In this document: positions 14,499-31,530 of the stretch, piece after piece
Position numbering within the stretch: the first letter of the stretch is position 1
Layout of the letters: every line of letters starts with the position of its first letter
Origin: Sanghuangporus weigelae
Taxonomy: Eukaryota > Basidiomycota > Agaricomycetes > Hymenochaetales > Hymenochaetaceae
Reading direction: 5' to 3'
Assembly (NCBI GenBank): GCA_033182465.1
Contig: CP137327.1
Span: forward strand, 248,001 to 312,000
DNA length: 64,000 nucleotides
Notes under the pieces: generated by a model
Database searches by the model: none
What the model saw: the letters and a program-made list of their open reading frames with translations, nothing else
Told to the model about the DNA's origin: nothing
Position numbers and translations under genes: made by a program

Positions 14499-15040
14499 CT
14501 AGTTCTCTGTGTAACGGTAAAATAGTCTAGTTAAGATTCCTAACTTCTTTGCGCCTCCTGTACCCTTCTCATCGACAAAAGAGTGTCGCACTCTACTATC
14601 TCTATGGCTCGAAATGTCGACCGAAAATCCGGTCCAAGATTGCCTTCCAGCTGCGAAAACAAGCCCTCGCTATAAGAGAATAACACAACTCGAAGCTGAG
14701 AACGTACAGTAATTCATGGCTTTGTAGTCTCCAACGAAGCAATTTCTTGACCCATCCACTTCAGAGAATGTCGTCAAACGTTTCTCTGCCGATTTCGAGA
14801 GAGTGATTTGGCCATTCTGAGCACTCATCATCACTGGACCAACAAGGTCTGCTGGAAGTGCAATGGAAACAGAACCATAGTTAGTATTGGCGGCTTTGGA
14901 CGCGGAAAACGTCGGAAAATGGATGGATCTCGCCGAGGAGATGCACCCACGGAGGACTACGGGTGAAGAAGTAATTGTTGAGATGTGGAACCATTGCGGT
15001 TTCGTATGGAGGCGGTCCATTGTCCTGCTCTTTGACAGGC
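14499..15040 (-). pseudogene. Internally deleted DUF7330-family remnant
   Basis: The C-terminal half matches the intact family members: GSVSIALPADLVGPVMM, RLTTFSEVDGSRNCFVGDYK, then an intron and a last exon of 152 nt (14499-14650) with QSWTGFSVDIS and SFVDEK. This last exon has the same length as that of the 15.6-16.6 kb gene. Upstream, a PPPYETA segment recalls the N-terminal PPPY of the intact genes. The middle of the domain (the IKRENSSIKGTFVVDAGL to TADVWLVDD section) is missing. The remnant lies back to back with the orphan CE15 exon. Confidence 0.75.
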
Positions 15041-15049
15041 TGGGGAAAT

Positions 15050-15630
15050 GAAGAAGGTTCGGTAAACTATGGAAATTTCTTTATGATTGTACGAATCTAC
15101 GAAGGATACGATATCCTCATCCTCTCCTTTAGCACTGATGACCATGGTGGTGGATGGTAGAAAACAGCGGATGCACTGAGCTGTTGTATGACCACCAAGC
15201 TATCCTAACTACGGCTGATTGATCTAATACTTGTATGTCCTCGGCCTTGTTTATAAGAATGAGCGCATCATGACGCTGGGAAATGACCAGGTACTGTATA
15301 CCGATGTTTATCAATTAAAAATTATGAGCTAGTCGAAAAGAAAGAACATCTTCAGCATTGATTACCTTAACACAGCAGATCGAATAAATAGCATACAAGC
15401 ATTTCTTAGAGACAACCAGTTGATTATCCTCTGAGATCAGTTGGACGGCCAAAGTCTAATGATTCAGATTCACGATTTGAATTCGCCAAGAAATCAGCGG
15501 ATTGCAATTTAATGAGCAAGGCCAATGCATGCCATACGAATACGATCTAGTCCATATCTCGGAACTGTCGATAACAGGAAGTCAGCTTATTCAACAGACA
15601 GAGAAATAGACAGAGAAACATACAAAACAC
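15050..15630. other. Intergenic, no gene seen
   Basis: AT-rich sequence with only short unsupported ORFs lies between the DUF7330 remnant and the first intact DUF7330 gene. Confidence 0.5.
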
Positions 15631-15632
15631 AC

Positions 15633-16593
15633 TTAGAATCCCGCAAAGAGCCTGCGAAAGAAGCCTCCGCCATCACTCACACTGCTACTCGCACTCGGAT
15701 CAACCTCGTCAACAAAAGATAGCTTGACTCTGCCGTTGACACTCCCGATCTCAGCTACTGATCCAGCCCAACGCTGGCCACCAGCTGCGATGACCATGAG
15801 ACGCACCAGAGTAGTGAGATACCGGGCATACGTTTTAAAGAGAAACTACGTACTGTATCCTGCTCTCCTATAGTCACCAACAAAGCATTTTCTTGTCCCA
15901 TTATCTTCTGAGAAAATCACCAAGCGCGATTCCATCGCACTAGACAAGGACACGGAACCATTCACAGTGTACAAGGTTAGTGGTCCCACGAAGTCTGATG
16001 GGAGTGCAACGGTGGTAGTTGCATTCTTTGATTTTATAATTAACGAGAAGGGACGTGATGTAGTCGAGTCCTGGAAAGGATTTTAACAGCACATTAAGGT
16101 AAAGTAAACACACGGCACCTACCAGCTTCAAGTTAATAGATCCGTTTCTTGACCTTAATTCGAGTTCTGCCCTTCTCATCAGATCCTTGTGTGAAGCCTC
16201 CGTTTCATCATCGACAAGCCAGACGTCGGCTGTAATACTAGAGTTGATGGACTCAAGGTATAGGTTCTTCTTTGCCTCAGCTTGTATCGGTCCTTGCGCA
16301 ACTTCGTCAGGTGAGTTAGAAGTCGATGCAGATGCTGGTAGTGTTGATAACAATTCATCTGGGATAGTAAGACCAGCATCGACGACAAATGTTCCTTTAA
16401 TTGACGAGTTCTCTCGTTTGATCTTGGTAAAATTCGTCGACATAATGTTAACTGGTCTTTCGCGACCCGAGGAAGAGCGAGATCTTGGATCGCTCTCTGA
16501 ATTATCATCGAAGGATGACGATGTGGGTGCCGGATTGTATGGTGGCGGAACGTCGCTTGGCCATGGACCAGTTTCCGGCTGTGATGACGCCAT
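15633..16593 (-). CDS. DUF7330-domain protein A (PPxY-containing)
   Basis: Three exons, 16123-16593, 15854-16070 and 15633-15784, sum to 840 nt (279 aa). The N terminus is Pro/Ser-rich and carries DVPPPYNPAP, a PPxY motif of the kind bound by WW domains. The globular part has the family pattern: IKRENSSIKGTFVVDAGL, NLYLESINSSITADVWLVDD, ELRSRNGSINLKL, VALPSDFVGPLTL, VIFSEDNGTRKCFVGDYRR, then WAGSVAEIGSVNGRVKLSF in the last exon, ending FFRRLFAGF. Repeated N-G-S/V strand-like segments suggest an all-beta repeat fold. Function is unknown; I read the family as DUF7330, common in agaricomycetes. No signal peptide or membrane segment is seen, so it is probably intracellular. A frame-preserving last intron is needed; reading through gives a false stop at 15846. 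Confidence 0.82.
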
Positions 16594-17144
16594 ATAGCTT
16601 CAGTGATAACCATCTCGAGGAAGACAACATACCGATGGTGGATTTCCTTCACTCGCCCCTTTCTCCCCAGGTATGAACATGTTGAACTTGTGCGGCTTTG
16701 TCGGATACTACGTTCGCCAAGCTGCTCAATCAAGGTCTTGTCGGAAGTTAGAAGTAGAAGCCTCCAAGAAAGTGTCCGAGCCTTGGCCATGGACTGCGGA
16801 CGGCTTCTCCGGTGTCCCAATCCAATCCTACTCGTCGCACGTGATGCCAAAAATGAGACGTTGCTTGACTTTACCTATTCTATAAAAATCTGCATTGAAT
16901 CGCTCACTTACTTGCCCAGATAATGAGTCCTATCGATTCTACTTCGGTCTTGATTTTGAATATTTGGAAACCTAATTCAATCGCATTGTCGCTCGAATAC
17001 GTGAACAAACAAATCCGGAGCATAAGACCAGTACTGCCAGTGCCAGTCACTACTGAGTACAATTTAAATGAATCAATGAATGGTCGCATTCCAAAACCTC
17101 AATGAAACTCCTGGATAAGAATTCGATGTAGTCAGCCGACTCTT

Positions 17145-18695
17145 TCAAGGCATGTCATTGATCCATAGGTACGCCTCAGGGAACGGTGTGTAGGGAGAAA
17201 TATCGGAGTAATTGCGAGTTGTCGGCGTTCCGAAGAACTCCTTCAGCATGAATGCCTGGATGTTGGAGCTAGAAGACGAAAGACCTTGATGAGTAGACCC
17301 TATGTATACTCGGAGCCGTTGCTTACTATCCAGAGATATCGCAATGCCAGCTGTCGCGAATCGCGACACCCACTTTGTCGCCAACACCAAGGAAATCGAA
17401 GACCGCCTTCGTAGCCGGGAAGGTCACCTCAGCTTCGCCCTCCGGGTTTGTCTAGAGTAAACCAAAGTAAATCGACGTTTTTTTATCAGCGTCTAAGCAG
17501 TTTACCCAGTAATCCGTTTCTCCTACGAGTTCGAGAAAATTAATTAGTTGTGATGCCTGAGCAAAGCTAACACCCACCCTCATCCCAGATTATCGCTCTC
17601 TTATTATTCCAGGTAAGTCATGCGCAGTGCCATTCTATAAGGTGCTATGGCTTACCGGCGCTACCAATGCCGCATTTATATGCGAGTCAAACGGAATCTG
17701 GCGTGCATCGTTGACGAACTTTAGTAAATTCGTATTTGTCCAGTATGGGTAAACTCCGGTGATGTTAGTGATCTTCTCGTTTTCTCCGACTAACGTAACT
17801 GTCAGACATTTTTGTGAAATACAGAAGTAGAGAAGAAGACTCGCGCTCTTCAAAGTGGAACCTCCAGGGTGCAATCCCTTCTGTCCCACTTGACATGGGC
17901 ATAGAAAGGGTTATCTAAAATCGGGAATATGCATGAGATTACTATGTATATGTGAGCGATATAAAACCAAAACTTACGCGCTCATCGAAAATACCCGCCG
18001 CGAGAGCGGCTTTTCCATATCGGCTGCATCCAATTGAGCCAACCCTAGTTGCGTCGAGCTCCGGAGCGACCTGGATGATTGCATCCAGTACGCGATGATA
18101 TCCCCAGCCCCAAGCCGTAAGGACACCTGGGACCAAATGAGATCCGAGAAATTTCCCTTGAAGTTTACTCACCAATGTCTCGGCCAGAGTATAAAGTCCA
18201 AAATGTGCCGGTACGAGCAGTCGAGTCCGCCGCAACATCAGGGAGATTGAACGTAGCAAGAGCGACACCGTAACCAAGGAACACGTTGTTGTCTACCCCA
18301 CCTGCACTGATGACAACAGGGACAGGTGACTGAGGAGTGCCGCGGACGTTCGTCGGTAAAGCAAGGCTCGCTCCAAAAGTCGCCGACTTCCCATTTGCAG
18401 AGACAGTGATGGAAAGCGAGTTCCCGGTGCGTGTAGCGTTGACGGTTTCTTGAGAGTGATCTGGATAATAGCCATACATATATTCTTGAACAAGCGTCAA
18501 AAGTTCAGCTCTGCGACAATCCCAGTCCTCAGGAGTCTGAACGGATGCATTATTGAAGAATGTGAATGGATCTGGCATGACATCGATGACAGGAAGGTCG
18601 GTAGGCGCTGGAAGAGGACTCGGTAGAGTCGGGCATGATTGGGCCCGGACGGTATTGGCGGCGAAAAGGAGAGCCAAGTATACGAAGGTAGTCAT
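17145..18695 (-). CDS. Glucuronoyl esterase (CE15), copy 1
   Basis: A secreted 4-O-methyl-glucuronoyl methylesterase of carbohydrate esterase family 15. These enzymes cleave ester links between glucuronic acid on xylan and lignin alcohols. The signal peptide is MTTFVYLALLFAANTVRA. The family start LPAPTDLPVIDVMPDPFTFF is followed by YMYGYYPDHS, TAWGWGYHRVLDAI, the nucleophile motif GCSRYGKAALAAG, MPMSSGTEGIAPWR, and DSWHCDISG with the expected catalytic His. The last exon ends PFPEAYLWINDMP. There are multiple short introns and no carbohydrate-binding module. It lies just upstream of DUF7330 A on the same strand. A TATA-like element lies about 50 bp upstream. Confidence 0.92.
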
Positions 18696-18740
18696 CGTTA
18701 GTGCGCAGTGGCTTGGTGTCTTACCAGCTCAAGGCTGAGC

Positions 18741-22560: not shown

Positions 22561-24156
22561 TTAAAAGTGGGTCCGTCCTGGTGCCTCGTTGATCCATGGA
22601 TATGCCTCAGGGAACAGAGTATAAGGAGAAATATCGGAGTAGTTCTGATCCGTTGGAGTCCCAAAGAACTGTTTGAGCATGAATGCCTGGATATTTGTAC
22701 TGTAAAAAAGCGTCTTCTTAGCCAAAATGTTTCGTCTGCCATAAATGTGGAACGCACTATCCAAAGATATCGCAATGACCACTATCACGTATAGCCACTC
22801 CAATTTTATCGCCGACCCCGAGCCAATCGTATACCGCCTTTGCGGCAATGAACGTCACCCGCGCTTCGCCTTCGGGGTTTGTCTTAGTTCAGTCAGTGTC
22901 TGACGCAGATAAATCTTGAATTAGGAGATCTCACCCAATAGTCAATTTGACCTATGAGAATAAGAAATGAACAAGGAAGCTATAGGCCATAAAGAAAGAA
23001 AGAAAAAAAGATTAGTACGAACCTTCATCCCAGATGATTGCACGCTATCATAAAGATCTGGTAAGTCATCCTTGAACGAATTATTAGGGAGCTCAGACGT
23101 ACTGGAGCAACCATCGCTGCATTGAGATGCGCGTCAAATGGAATCTGGTGAGAATTGTTTCTGAGTTGGATCAGGTTCGTGTTCATCCAATAAGGGAAGC
23201 CGCCAGTGATGTTTTGAATTTTCTCGTTTTCGCCAACTGAAAAAGAAAAACTTAGAACTTCCGTACTGAAGTTTTGCATATAGTGGTGCTCACACTCCTG
23301 AAACTGGAATCTCCAAGGCGCGATACCTTCGGCTCCGCTTGACATGGGCATTGTAAGCATAATCTGATCAAAAATCATGAGGGAGGAACGAAGATGATAC
23401 AGAAGAACATCGACTCACGCGTTCATCAAATATTCCAGCAGCAAGAGCAGCTTTTCCGTCTCGACTACAGCCAATGGCTCCTACACGCTTAGTATCTAGC
23501 TCCGGGGCAACTTGCTCTAGCGCATCCAGAACACGATGGTATCCCCAGCCCCAAGCAGTGATAACGCCTTCGAAGAACTCTCAGTCTATGGGATAAATGG
23601 TTCAGAGACAGAAATTCTTACCGATGTCGCGACCTGAATACAGGTCCCAAAATGCGCCACTGGCATTGACGGAATCGGCGGCTACATCTCCGACATTGAA
23701 AGACGCAAGAGCTATACCAGAACCCAAGAACACAGTATTATTGACTGGATCGGTGTTGATGACGACAGGGACAGGTGCTCTCCTCGAAGCATTCACACTC
23801 GTCGGAAGAGTTACAGTCGCGCCGAAGGTTGATGTTCTGCGACCGACGGAGACCGTGATGTTCACCGAATTGCCACTTCGTGTGGCATGAACTCTCTCAA
23901 GAGAGTGATCTGGATAGTAGCCGTACATGTACTCCTGCATAAGCGTCATGATTTCCGCGCGCCGGCACGTCCACTGCTCTGGGGAACGCAAAGATGCATT
24001 ATTGAAGAACTTGAACGGATCAGGGAGCGCCTCGATAACTGGAAGGTCTGTTGGGGCCGGTAGACGTCTGGGAAGTGTTGTTGGGCACGACAGTGCATTA
24101 GCATGGAGGATACCGACAAGCAGCGAGAAAACGAACAAGACAGCTGGAACAGCCAT
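22561..24156 (-). CDS. Glucuronoyl esterase (CE15), copy 2
   Basis: A paralogue of the gene at 17.1-18.7 kb with the same domain order. The signal peptide is MAVPAVLFVFSLLVGILHANA, followed by APTDLPVIEALPDPFKFFNN, YMYGYYPDHS, TAWGWGYHRVLDALEQVAPE, nucleophile motif GCSRDGKAALAAG, MPMSSGAEGIAPWR and DSGHCDIFG. The last exon ends YPWINEAPGRTHF. The start is the ATG at 24156. The in-frame ATG at 24201 overlaps a TATA box and was rejected. The copies differ at the residue after the catalytic serine pair (GCSRYGK versus GCSRDGK) and before the catalytic His (WHC versus GHC). No carbohydrate-binding module is seen. Confidence 0.92.
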
Positions 24157-24200
24157 GTTTCCAGTTACTTGAGCAACGTTGGAACAAGAGGCAAGAAGCA

Positions 24201-24207
24201 TTTTATA
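24201..24207 (-). promoter_or_regulatory. TATA box of CE15 copy 2
   Basis: The minus strand reads TATAAAA (within CTATAAAATG), about 45 bp upstream of the chosen ATG at 24156. Confidence 0.6.
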
Positions 24208-25089
24208 GCCTTCATCTTAGGTATTCTGGTGACACGAGGTTGAAGGTGTCGACGTCCAGGTCGAGCTAAACCGTCGACGATGACATAGCAAAAGGCTGCA
24301 AACCGGGAGGGCTGAGCTTCGAGATACCGCTCCAAACAGGATCTATAAATACGATCGATCACCAGGCCACAGCTGTCAATTCATCAAGCGGAGGAATAGC
24401 TATAAATATCGCAAAAATGCTGTATGTCGCTACCGGTGGGTACGGTAGAAATCAAAAAGGCGCCGAAGGTTGGCACGAGTACACGGTAGAAGACAGTTCA
24501 CATGATCTGCGGCCATACTCGATGTCGTTGGGGCGGCACCGTTGGGTCCGGGCGACGGAGAGTCGAACTTCAAGAAGCTCAATGAGCGCATGAGCAAGTT
24601 ACTAACGGGAGAATTGTTTGTGCAATCCAGTGCTAAACGGTTGCTGCAGGTCACGACTGGCAACCAGAGCTAACCACTTCGCAATGTCAAAATCAACAAC
24701 TTGAAGTTCATCGCACGAGTCGCACCATGATACTCCTAGTAAGAATGATGCCTTGGATTGTTTTATGTGTCGAGACCACTGCTGCTGTAAGTCGCAAAAC
24801 CGAACTCAAGACGATTTCGATTGTGGATAGAAAGAAAAGTCACGCGAATTTCGTCGCAATCGCGAAATCGATCGATCGACAGTCGCACGGTTGTTTACCT
24901 TTGCTGACACTTTACAAAGCAATGACGGCCAACGACATAGAGCAAATCCAACAATATTAATGATTACACGCACAAGCTTTCATACGGACTGAACTAACAT
25001 GAATGGGAAGAAAATAATACAGGATCCAGAATGCAGTACAGGTTAGCAAGGAAATTAGGCGTGTACTACATGCATGACTTCCACAACAA
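24208..25089. other. Intergenic, no gene seen
   Basis: This stretch lies between CE15 copy 2 and DUF7330 B. Short ORFs on both strands have no recognisable features. Confidence 0.5.
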
Positions 25090-26097
25090 CTATCCACCGA
25101 ATATCCTCCGCCAGAATCCGGGATTCGTCTTCTCTTCTCCAATATACGAAAGACTAACGCGTCCATTATGGCTTCCCATATCTATAGTAGACCCGGTCCA
25201 AGCCTGCCTACCGGCTGAACAAAATGAAATACAAGGAGTCAGACTCTTCCCATTCATTCTGCAAATCAAAATTCGAATGAAGAGTTTACGCACTGTATCC
25301 AGCCCTCTTGTAATCTCCAATGAAGCAGTTCCTCGTCCCATCCTCCTCCGAGAAGGTCATCAATCGCGCTTGCACCGCTCCCGACAGCGAGACACACCAA
25401 CTCTTAGCGGTCAATGTCACGGGTCCGACAAAGTCAGCAGGGATCGCGACTGAGACGGAACCATTATGCGAGGTTGCGATTAATGCGAAAGGCCGTATTG
25501 TAGTCGTTTCCTGCGTAGAGCAGAGAATAATGAGCTTGACTGTGGATCATCAAGGCGTGAACGTACGAGTCGCAGATTAACAGATCCATTGTGAGATTTC
25601 AACTCCAGCTCGGCCCTCTTCCCTACCATCTCCGGGTCACCGTCTCCAGCCGACTCTTCATCATCAACGAGCCAGACATCCGCCGTTGCACTCGCATTCG
25701 TACTCTCGAGGTACAAGTTCTTCCTCACTTCCTCACTGCTTCCTGCTTCCCCTCCGTGCACAGCACCTTCCGTTATTTCAGACTCCTGCGCGGCACCGAA
25801 GAGGACTCCTTCCGGTACGCGAAGCCCAGCATCGATAACAAATGTTCCCTTAACGGACGTGTTCTTGCGTTTTATCTTCACGAAGTTGGATGAAGGTATG
25901 TTTATTGGTCTTGGATAAAATGGAATACGCGACTGTGCTAAGGATGAGACGCCAGACGGTGGAGTGTTGCCTGCAGATTCAGATGAGAGATTATAAGGAG
26001 GGGGCACATCGGCTGCAAAAGGCTCCTGAGCAATTGCTGTAAGCACCGTCGCGTTGTTCATTCGAGAACAGTCAATCACGTACTGTCCTTTCCCCAT
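25090..26097 (-). CDS. DUF7330-domain protein B (PPxY-containing)
   Basis: Three exons, 25567-26097, 25294-25510 and 25090-25214, sum to 873 nt (290 aa). The layout is the same as protein A: N-terminal DVPPPYNLSS (PPxY), IKRKNTSVKGTFVIDAGL, NLYLESTNASATADVWLVDD, ELKSHNGSVNLRL, VAIPADFVGPVTL, FSEEDGTRNCFIGDYKRAGY, and a last exon with WTGSTIDMGSHNGRVSLSY ending FWRRIFGG. Exon 2 is 217 nt, exactly as in A. An alternative start, MNNATVL, lies at 26061. Function is unknown. It sits beside CE15 copy 2 in the same relative way that remnants and copy A sit beside other CE15 sequence. Confidence 0.82.
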
Positions 26098-29354: not shown

Positions 29355-31530
29355 TCAGTCGAGCCCAAAGTCGAGAAATTCGCTCAAAAAAACAAAGATC
29401 ACTGACTTTCCGTTGACTCTCCACTTCTCTCCACTCGCATCTAGGGCGTCGGCTTTCTCCTGATCGACACCGACGACGACGTCTGCCTTGCTCGTCCGAA
29501 GGCTTAAAATAGGGAATGCCCCTGCTAATGGACCTAGATGATCCGAGCCGTGCGTCAGACAATGAAGCAATGGCAGAGATCAAATTACCTATGGCCTCAG
29601 CCATTGGAGTTGACGCTGGCCATTTAACGTCTCCTGTTAATCTGCAAGGGACCTCATTGGTGTGGTGTGACTTCTTAAAACAAGACAAAACCTTACTTTC
29701 TATAACTAAAAGCCATTCGACAGTTTATTGCGGCATTCTTCATCGATACGGTTCAGCACTCACTTCAAGTCGCCCTAATGTGTTCCATTAACAAGGCTCG
29801 TCTTATTACGACCAGAACGAACCAAACGTACCTTGAATATAACCAGTTCGCTCTGCTTTAAACTCTCGAACAATTTCGGCGCTTTCTCGCTCATGTCCCA
29901 GTACGGATTTGGCGCCGTCCAGAAATCATATATTTCATTCTTCTCGCCTAATTCTGTCTCCAATGGTACGCTCAGCACAAACACACCTTTCTCGACATAC
30001 TGTTCCCATCGTGTGAGGAGAGTGGAGAGTTGAGCGCGGGCATCGCCAGATGGTGCATCGTGAAGGAAGAACGATTCAGAGCGCAGAGATGTGAAGAGAG
30101 CGCGAAAGTCGGGAGGAGTTACGTCTGATACGAACCAAGGAATTGATTTAGGACTGAAAGAGCGAAGGGTTATGAATGAGCCGTGCAATTAGGCGAATAC
30201 AAAATACGTACTGAAAGACAACTCTGGAAACATATGGAGTGTAGGTAACGAGGAAATCGGCGAAGACAAGATCCGTAAAGAGCTGAGAATGGATTCATTC
30301 AATAGCTTGTTCCATTATGTGCTGCAGAATGTACCTCAAATCCGGCTTTCAGGAACAAATGAGACCAGAGTCAATATATATAGGGAGGAAAGGGATAGGC
30401 TTACCGTTATCGAGAATAAAATCGATTCTCGCATCCTTCAGGGTAGTCAAGTACTCGAAGGCCACTTTTTCGTCGTCGCGCAAGATGAATGCCTTACGCT
30501 CATCTTGTACCTCTTTCCCAACGCTTTGAAGCTTCAGAATGTCCTCATGCGTGAGGTTCGTCAGCAATGATAGGTCCTAAACTCAATCAATGTCTCGAAC
30601 TTATGCGAAACTATCAAAACTTTTGTAGAACTCACAGTGGCATTTCCCCATAGACACATTTGGATCATCTCATTGAAGAGCATGTCCAGCTTGCTCGGAT
30701 CCTCCTCCAGTTCGGCCTTCGTTTCTTCGAACTCGTGCATTGTAGCGGCAAGCTCTGTAGTAAGTCAGCCTCATATGGTCCTCAAATATGTTGTAGAACT
30801 GTACTGTAGATAGCAGCCGAGGACGCTTTGAACGAATCTTCCTTGCCAGAAAGGAATGGATCATAATACTTCCAATACGTCGTGATTGCGAACCAGGAGC
30901 GAAGCAGTCGATACAAATAACACCTTCAACGCATCGTTTTTCAAAAAAAGGAGCCGAGAGAAGAGTACGATGTACTGACTCAGCGTATAGCCATGGAGCC
31001 GTGAACCACGTATTCTTGCCCTGTTCCCCAAGTTTTGCAAGCTCGAGATTGTATGTATCCACATCCGCTTCTCCGTCGTCTCCAATTGGCCTATGACCAA
31101 CCGTTCATTTTCAGACTTCATCATCTTAACGTAGCTTGCGGGAACATACTGCAATGCCCGATCCCTTGCCATCTCATACTTCAACTTGCTGACCTTCTCA
31201 ATGATTGCCTTGCCTTCTTCCACTCGAGTCTCCCAATTCGGGTCTACTGAGCCTTCTGTACTTGACCGCGATGCAGCCATCGTGAGCTCATGGTTCACTC
31301 GATGGATATGGTCGATGAGCTTCGTGAGTATTATCGGCCATCGTTTTAAGACCGTCTCATGGCTACGTTCGAGGAATCATAAAATCGCAAGTTGAGAAGG
31401 AAATGGAACGAAAGAACTGACGAGAATCTGCTTGGACGTCAGCTTGGATTTTTGGCGTACTGTTCAGCAATACTGACCCATTCTTATCTGTCGGATCGCA
31501 GGGAGAATATGCCGGTATGAAAAGCGTCAT
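29355..31530 (-). CDS. DUF89/ARMT1-like metal-dependent phosphatase or carboxyl methyltransferase
   Basis: The family (yeast YMR027W, human ARMT1) comprises metal-dependent damage-control phosphatases; ARMT1 has also been described as a protein-glutamate methyltransferase. The start MTLFIPAYSPCDPTDKNGS splices to TVLKRWPIILTKLIDHIHRV, then DTYNLELAKLGEQGKNTWFT with APWLYAE, then WFVSDVTPPDF, FWTAPNPYWDM and ELVIFK. The signature GDLNYRKLTGD is assembled from an 11-nt exon at 29764-29774 and a 9-nt exon at 29697-29705 joined to the exon starting at 29641. The C-terminal part has VKWPASTPMAEAI then GAFPILSLRTSKADVVVGV, ending EFLDFGLD. An upstream in-frame ATG at 31575 would add 15 residues. 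It is probably cytosolic. Confidence 0.88.

Follow-up and report, generated by a model that had tools for sequence, protein, structure and literature searches.

Three certain and one probable microexons in an ARMT1-like (DUF89) gene of Sanghuangporus weigelae

Genes with very short exons have been described in fungi before. In the P450 genes of Phanerochaete chrysosporium, exons range down to 6 base pairs (bp) and microexons occur in nearly one-third of the genes, according to excerpts of the paper concerned (PMC1184071). According to its abstract, a study of Xlr2 in Trichoderma virens was the first to show a functional microexon in a filamentous fungus (PMC11121469), and the excerpted text of the same paper provides the definition used here, a coding exon of 3–30 nucleotides (nt). 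Within the open-licence literature, we found no paper that links microexons with DUF89, and a search for micro-exons in fungi and Agaricomycetes likewise yielded none; three papers use the word microexon solely for a read-mapping parameter. Here we analyze a 64,000-nt stretch of the Sanghuangporus weigelae genome (contig CP137327.1, positions 248,001–312,000; hereafter “the window,” with positions counted from its first letter), which lies on contig C10 of the 13 contigs and 33.87 megabases (Mb) searched. On its minus strand we find what is very probably an intact ARMT1-type phosphatase gene, in which close-set short GT-AG introns leave three certain and one probable microexons.

The product of the gene model is predicted to be a metal-dependent phosphatase of metabolite repair, of the ARMT1/DUF89 family. 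It matches PF01937 (ARMT1-like) at 268.4 bits (cut-off, 25) over profile positions 2–309 of 311. The nearest solved relative by phmmer is Schizosaccharomyces pombe SPCC1393.13 (7t7n_B, E 3.6e-93), and further relatives are S. pombe SPAC806.04c (7t7k_B), yeast YMR027W (3pt1_A), and a DUF89 phosphatase (6umq_A); the name given to the relatives in PDB is “Damage-control phosphatase.” The 479-residue model aligns almost end to end with the solved relatives and contains no stop and no frameshift. The motif set DN[AS]GFE, KGDLN[YF]RK, and RT.K, common to three fungal relatives, is present in full, as DNAGFE from residue 263, KGDLNYRK from residue 399, and RTSK from residue 436; RT.K is the motif that we take to define the ARMT1-like subfamily. 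In an alignment of four sequences, residues G400, D401, L402, N403, R405, and K406, together with G266, F267, and E268, are invariant, and all of them are coded by microexons or by codons split at microexon borders. The D of DNAGFE, presumably catalytic, is replaced by N in chain 8tkz_B as compared with 7t7n_B.

Two of the microexons are consecutive. Between positions 29832 and 29641 of the minus strand, exons of 11 and 9 nt are set among GT...AG introns of 57, 58, and 55 nt (Table 1), and the spliced reading across their junctions is IFKGDLNYRKLTGDVKWP, with the next exon beginning at 29641. An initial annotation of this DNA had named the DUF89/ARMT1 family and proposed that the two exons restore its signature, GDLNYRK; the profile match bears out the former and the junctions the latter, and the coordinates and lengths it gave for both exons and the three introns are exact to the base. 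Where it fell short was in number, as it had recognized two microexons, both of which stand, in a gene that has three and probably four. Those of 11, 11, and 9 nt are certain, and the 6-nt exon 2 is a probable addition, for which a tandem acceptor (AAGCAG) three bases upstream would give a 9-nt alternative, CAGATTCTC. All four lengths lie within the 3–30 nt of the definition. Introns in the model measure 50–65 nt, and those flanking the four microexons are GT-AG introns of 50–59 nt. Inclusion of these exons in the mature transcript is predicted from homology.

Table 1. Positions of the ARMT1-like gene, its microexons, and the flanking introns within the window
Feature	Sequence or intron ends	Length	Position	Strand	Content or remark
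Microexon 11	GGCGACTTGAA	11 nt	29774-29764	minus	GDL and two bases of N in KGDLNYRK
Microexon 12	TTATAGAAA	9 nt	29705-29697	minus	completes N, encodes YR, and begins K (two bases) in KGDLNYRK
Microexon 8	CCGGATTTGAG	11 nt	30345-30335	minus	with the last base of the preceding exon, encodes AGFE of DNAGFE
Probable microexon 2	ATTCTC	6 nt	31427-31422	minus	part of GFS near the N-terminus, before HETV
ARMT1-like (DUF89) gene, start to stop codon		479 residues	31530-29299	minus	15 exons, 14 introns, open frame
Intron 1	GTCAGT...GCAG	50 nt	31477-31428	minus	CTGAC branch-like site 11 nt before the end
Intron 2	GTCAGT...GTAG	59 nt	31421-31363	minus	
Intron 7	GTAAGC...AAAG	59 nt	30404-30346	minus	upstream of microexon 8
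Intron 8	GTACAT...TCAG	52 nt	30334-30283	minus	downstream of microexon 8
Intron 10	GTACGT...TTAG	57 nt	29831-29775	minus	
Intron 11	GTGAGT...TTAG	58 nt	29763-29706	minus	without a good branch-site match
Intron 12	GTAAGG...GCAG	55 nt	29696-29642	minus	without a good branch-site match

The exons that carry the active-site motifs are well separated from chance. With introns limited to 45–75 nt, inserted exons to at most 30 nt, and introns to at most three, 46 splice chains are possible in the 190-nt region between the larger exons, and the chain with exons 11 and 12 is the one that yields GDLNYRK. Its score of 39 was reached by none of 5000 dinucleotide-preserving shuffles, the best of which scored 18, and exon 8 was likewise reproduced by none of 5000. 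The target peptide was taken from yeast YMR027W and S. pombe SPAC806.04c, which makes the test independent of the window. We also ran a protein-to-DNA spliced aligner (GT-AG introns of 40–130 nt, BLOSUM62, intron penalties of 6, 10, and 14) with 16 independent relatives, 3 solved fungal and 13 cyanobacterial, giving 48 runs. The cyanobacterial queries served as intronless references and came from a genome contig scan that found 13 loci (L017–L029), all titled cyanobacteria; in 12 of them a single frame spans the match to within one base, and in L027 it spans 893 of 1081. Exact calls were obtained in 48 runs for exon 8, 48 for exon 11, 47 for exon 12, and 21 for exon 2. With the fungal queries, exons 8, 11, and 12 appear at their exact coordinates in all nine runs, exon 2 in one, and the exon 2 donor in five; with the cyanobacterial queries, exons 8, 11, 12, and 2 were called in 39, 39, 38, and 20 of 39 runs. 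For exon 2, the exact GFS was matched by 7 of 5000 shuffles, and its F falls in a column where the three fungal relatives have F or Y; F also stands there in SFANVT, SFAHYT, and similar cyanobacterial contexts, and in the SFAHAT of a second DUF89 gene described below.

A number of points weigh against the reading of an intact gene with this set of exons. Calls of exon 2 depend on the penalty, falling from 13 to 7 to 1 of 16 runs at penalties of 6, 10, and 14, and a fairer test, which accepts any microexon that keeps the frame and puts F in the column, is passed by 101 of 5000 shuffles. An extra intron of 42–57 nt was placed inside exon 10 in 35 of the 48 runs (at 29984-29943 in 26 of them); because conservation is lacking in this stretch and the candidate called most often has a length divisible by three, the frame cannot tell the two models apart, and the gene would have 15 or 16 exons, a count that is not final. 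When splice signals are scored with a matrix built from 24 control introns of DIS3 and a permease, by which outsiders score low by construction, the acceptors of introns 1, 7, 10, and 14 fall below all 24 controls, three of them directly upstream of microexons, and the same is true of introns 4, 11, and 12 for their best branch-site-like match; with a matrix so biased, these low scores are a hint only. As for orthologs, the genome contig scan returned cyanobacteria only and is silent on intron conservation among fungi, and close-relative and profile scans of viral contigs gave no relative. When the three microexon regions were searched for introner-like copies in their own genome, each found itself only, in a DNA search that skips common words and may miss old copies. 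The gene structure, moreover, is predicted from DNA and homology, a circumstance that also tells against regulated splicing and in favor of a decaying copy, two alternatives taken up below. As a separate observation on splice signals, the donor GTCAGT occurs in 4 of the 14 introns of this gene (introns 1, 2, 4, and 14, at 31477, 31421, 30979, and 29406) versus none of the 24 control introns.

Comparison with other genes of the same genome helps to place these exons. The family search of the genome found only one other DUF89 gene, on C1:1829600-1832800 (L004), which is a distinct and diverged family member and carries the variant KGDLNHRKLTYD instead of KGDLNYRKLTGD. Its frames run uninterrupted through DNAGFELY, KGDLNHRK, and SFAHAT, and the spliced aligner models it with about six exons and none of the microexons, although its lowest penalty produced, in 3 of 12 runs, spurious pieces of 11 and 7 nt at the ends. 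Since the motifs of this second gene are uninterrupted, the interruptions belong to the window copy and are not demanded by the protein. A convenience sample of 79 exons was drawn from DIS3 (14), the permease (12), tubulins (45, counted with the better of two queries), the second DUF89 gene (6, as modeled with a penalty of 10), and cytochrome c (2). None of the 79 exons is of 11 nt or less and two are of 12–16 nt (12 and 16 nt), leaving aside a 15-nt terminal piece at the alignment end of the second DUF89 gene; no p-value is attached to this comparison because the window gene was chosen for its microexons. The tubulin genes contain a 12-nt exon followed by a 26-nt exon, as well as a 16-nt exon, all stable at four penalties, so the window gene is not unique in its genome. 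The cytochrome c gene, chosen owing to a P. chrysosporium cytochrome c title among the microexon references in the excerpted text of PMC11121469, was modeled by the aligner with two exons and no microexon. This genome thus tolerates tiny and consecutive exons, with the window gene at the extreme. Motif conservation partly explains why the pieces are visible at all, and microexons in variable regions would escape the method. Among the tubulin models, locus L012 (C7 near 2192141) is a diverged beta-tubulin-like gene with 19 exons modeled, including one of 12 nt and then one of 26 nt.

How such exons could be spliced is suggested by the size of the introns around them. With introns of 50–65 nt, recognition across the intron would suffice: each intron may be recognized as a unit, the introns would be removed in series, and once one neighboring intron is out, the microexon would be joined into a longer exon, so that its own length would no longer matter. 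The microexons are also likely to be constitutive. The introns of two other genes in the window measure 49–78 nt. Work from 2000 by Romfo in S. pombe is reportedly what is usually cited for intron definition. Splicing efficiency under intron definition follows intron length and not exon length, as the excerpted text of a review has it (PMC8624252), and for introns of 50–65 nt the suggestion in the initial annotation that these exons challenge exon-definition models is not supported; no splicing model is overturned. As to origin, the cluster may have formed as introns were inserted separately at neighboring sites in a lineage rich in introns. An introner origin is not supported, as the genome search with the three microexon regions, which skips common words, showed no near-identical intron copies; the best intron pair inside the gene is reached by 8 of 200 shuffles.

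The model also predicts what errors in splicing would do. Skipping exon 8, exon 11, or exons 11 and 12 together would bring stops at codons 290, 401, and 405 of 480, respectively. Skipping exon 2 or exon 12 would keep the frame, the latter making the protein three residues shorter within NYRK. Retention of any of introns 1–12 would lead to a stop before the normal end, and retention of intron 13 or 14 to a new stop slightly beyond the normal length. The earlier claim that the motif is lost without either of the consecutive microexons is upheld in both cases, by an early stop for the 11-nt exon and a shortened NYRK for the 9-nt exon, and faithful splicing would thus be needed. These outcomes could also be taken to mean that the microexons are regulated, with in-frame skipping of exon 12 or 2 losing the complete KGDLNYRK, errors at the 11-nt exons stopping early, and splicing setting the level of the enzyme. 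We consider such regulation unlikely. The division into in-frame skips and truncating errors is what it would use, the branch-site and acceptor scores near the microexons are weak, and a glucose-dependent switch of a 20-nt microexon is reported for Trichoderma Xlr2 in the excerpted paper (PMC11121469). However, the frame outcomes are the same as for any short exon, and the donor scores of introns 10, 11, and 12 (8.3, 8.8, and 6.6) lie inside the control range.

A bolder proposal, and in our view a quite improbable one, is that the microexon cluster is ancient, conserved in the ARMT1 genes of mushroom-forming fungi, and kept in order to make enzyme activity dependent on splicing. If this were true, efficient removal of small introns would give active enzyme, a full-length but catalytically crippled isoform would result when the 9-nt exon is skipped, other splicing errors would give early stops and decay, and the gene would report on the state of the splicing machinery.

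We regard it as highly unlikely that the gene is a decaying copy in which the motif pieces are remnants no longer joined. Some of its splice signals are weak and the second DUF89 gene has the motifs intact, but the 479-residue frame is open and its alignment with solved relatives covers almost the whole length, the invariant residues are retained, and the second gene is distinct and diverged. That chance has produced the matching pieces and that the true exon path is a different one is extremely unlikely in our view. Exon 2 taken alone could be chance at about 2% by the fairer test, and the aligner sometimes calls other small internal exons (10 calls at 20 nt or less versus 164 for the four reported exons over the 48 runs), but exons 8, 11, and 12 were matched by no shuffle and called in 47–48 of 48 alignments. 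An intact phosphatase gene whose microexons are left between close-set short introns thus remains the reading that we prefer.

Some further observations were made along the way. The ARMT1-type subfamily is mainly eukaryotic. The cyanobacterial proteins of L017–L029 are of ARMT1 type and carry DN[AS]GFE and KGDANYRR, which makes gene transfer or old ancestry possible questions. Elsewhere in the window, two open frames on the minus strand (18168-18728 and 23605-24216) encode a fungal glucuronyl esterase domain (GCE_fung), and matches to DUF7330 lie at 14673-15080, 15943-16599, and 25483-26097; the paired GCE_fung frames and the DUF7330 matches suggest local duplication. Fungal families such as GCE_fung, together with the intron size, agree with a fungal source, and the agaricomycete setting assumed in the initial annotation is plausible.

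Gene predictors that impose a minimum exon length would drop the active-site motifs of this gene, and the enzyme would look defective or truncated. The remark in the initial annotation that predictors usually miss such exons would accord with one published case (PMC11121469). This one gene can serve as a compact test of both microexon-aware annotation and the serial splicing of short fungal introns, with three sets of junctions 9–11 nt apart, an intact second family member without the microexons in the same genome, and intronless bacterial references. Set against known systems, it is a conspicuous example of something that fungi were already known to do and not a new mechanism. Human RPS24 also has several microexons in succession, but it is a metazoan ribosomal protein gene whose alternative splicing has been studied in cancer, as described in excerpts of two papers (PMC12686416, PMC11162997). 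Xlr2 of T. virens, in the excerpted account, shares with the window gene a very short fungal exon, of 20 nt, which forms part of a key domain and was missed by genome annotation; it is, however, an ascomycete transcription factor with RNA sequencing (RNA-seq) evidence for glucose-dependent inclusion (PMC11121469), whereas the window gene is modeled from DNA and has so far shown no sign of regulation. The 12-, 26-, and 16-nt tubulin exons of the same genome are likewise short, lie between introns of normal length, and include two consecutive ones, but they are of at least 12 nt and are not placed at the catalytic motif of an enzyme. The P450 genes of P. chrysosporium are again fungal genes with very short exons, which in the excerpted paper are predictions of gene structure except in CYP63, where alternative splicing was observed (PMC1184071). 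The window gene differs from them in encoding a phosphatase and in its three or four microexons, of which three lie in invariant active-site motifs and two are adjacent.
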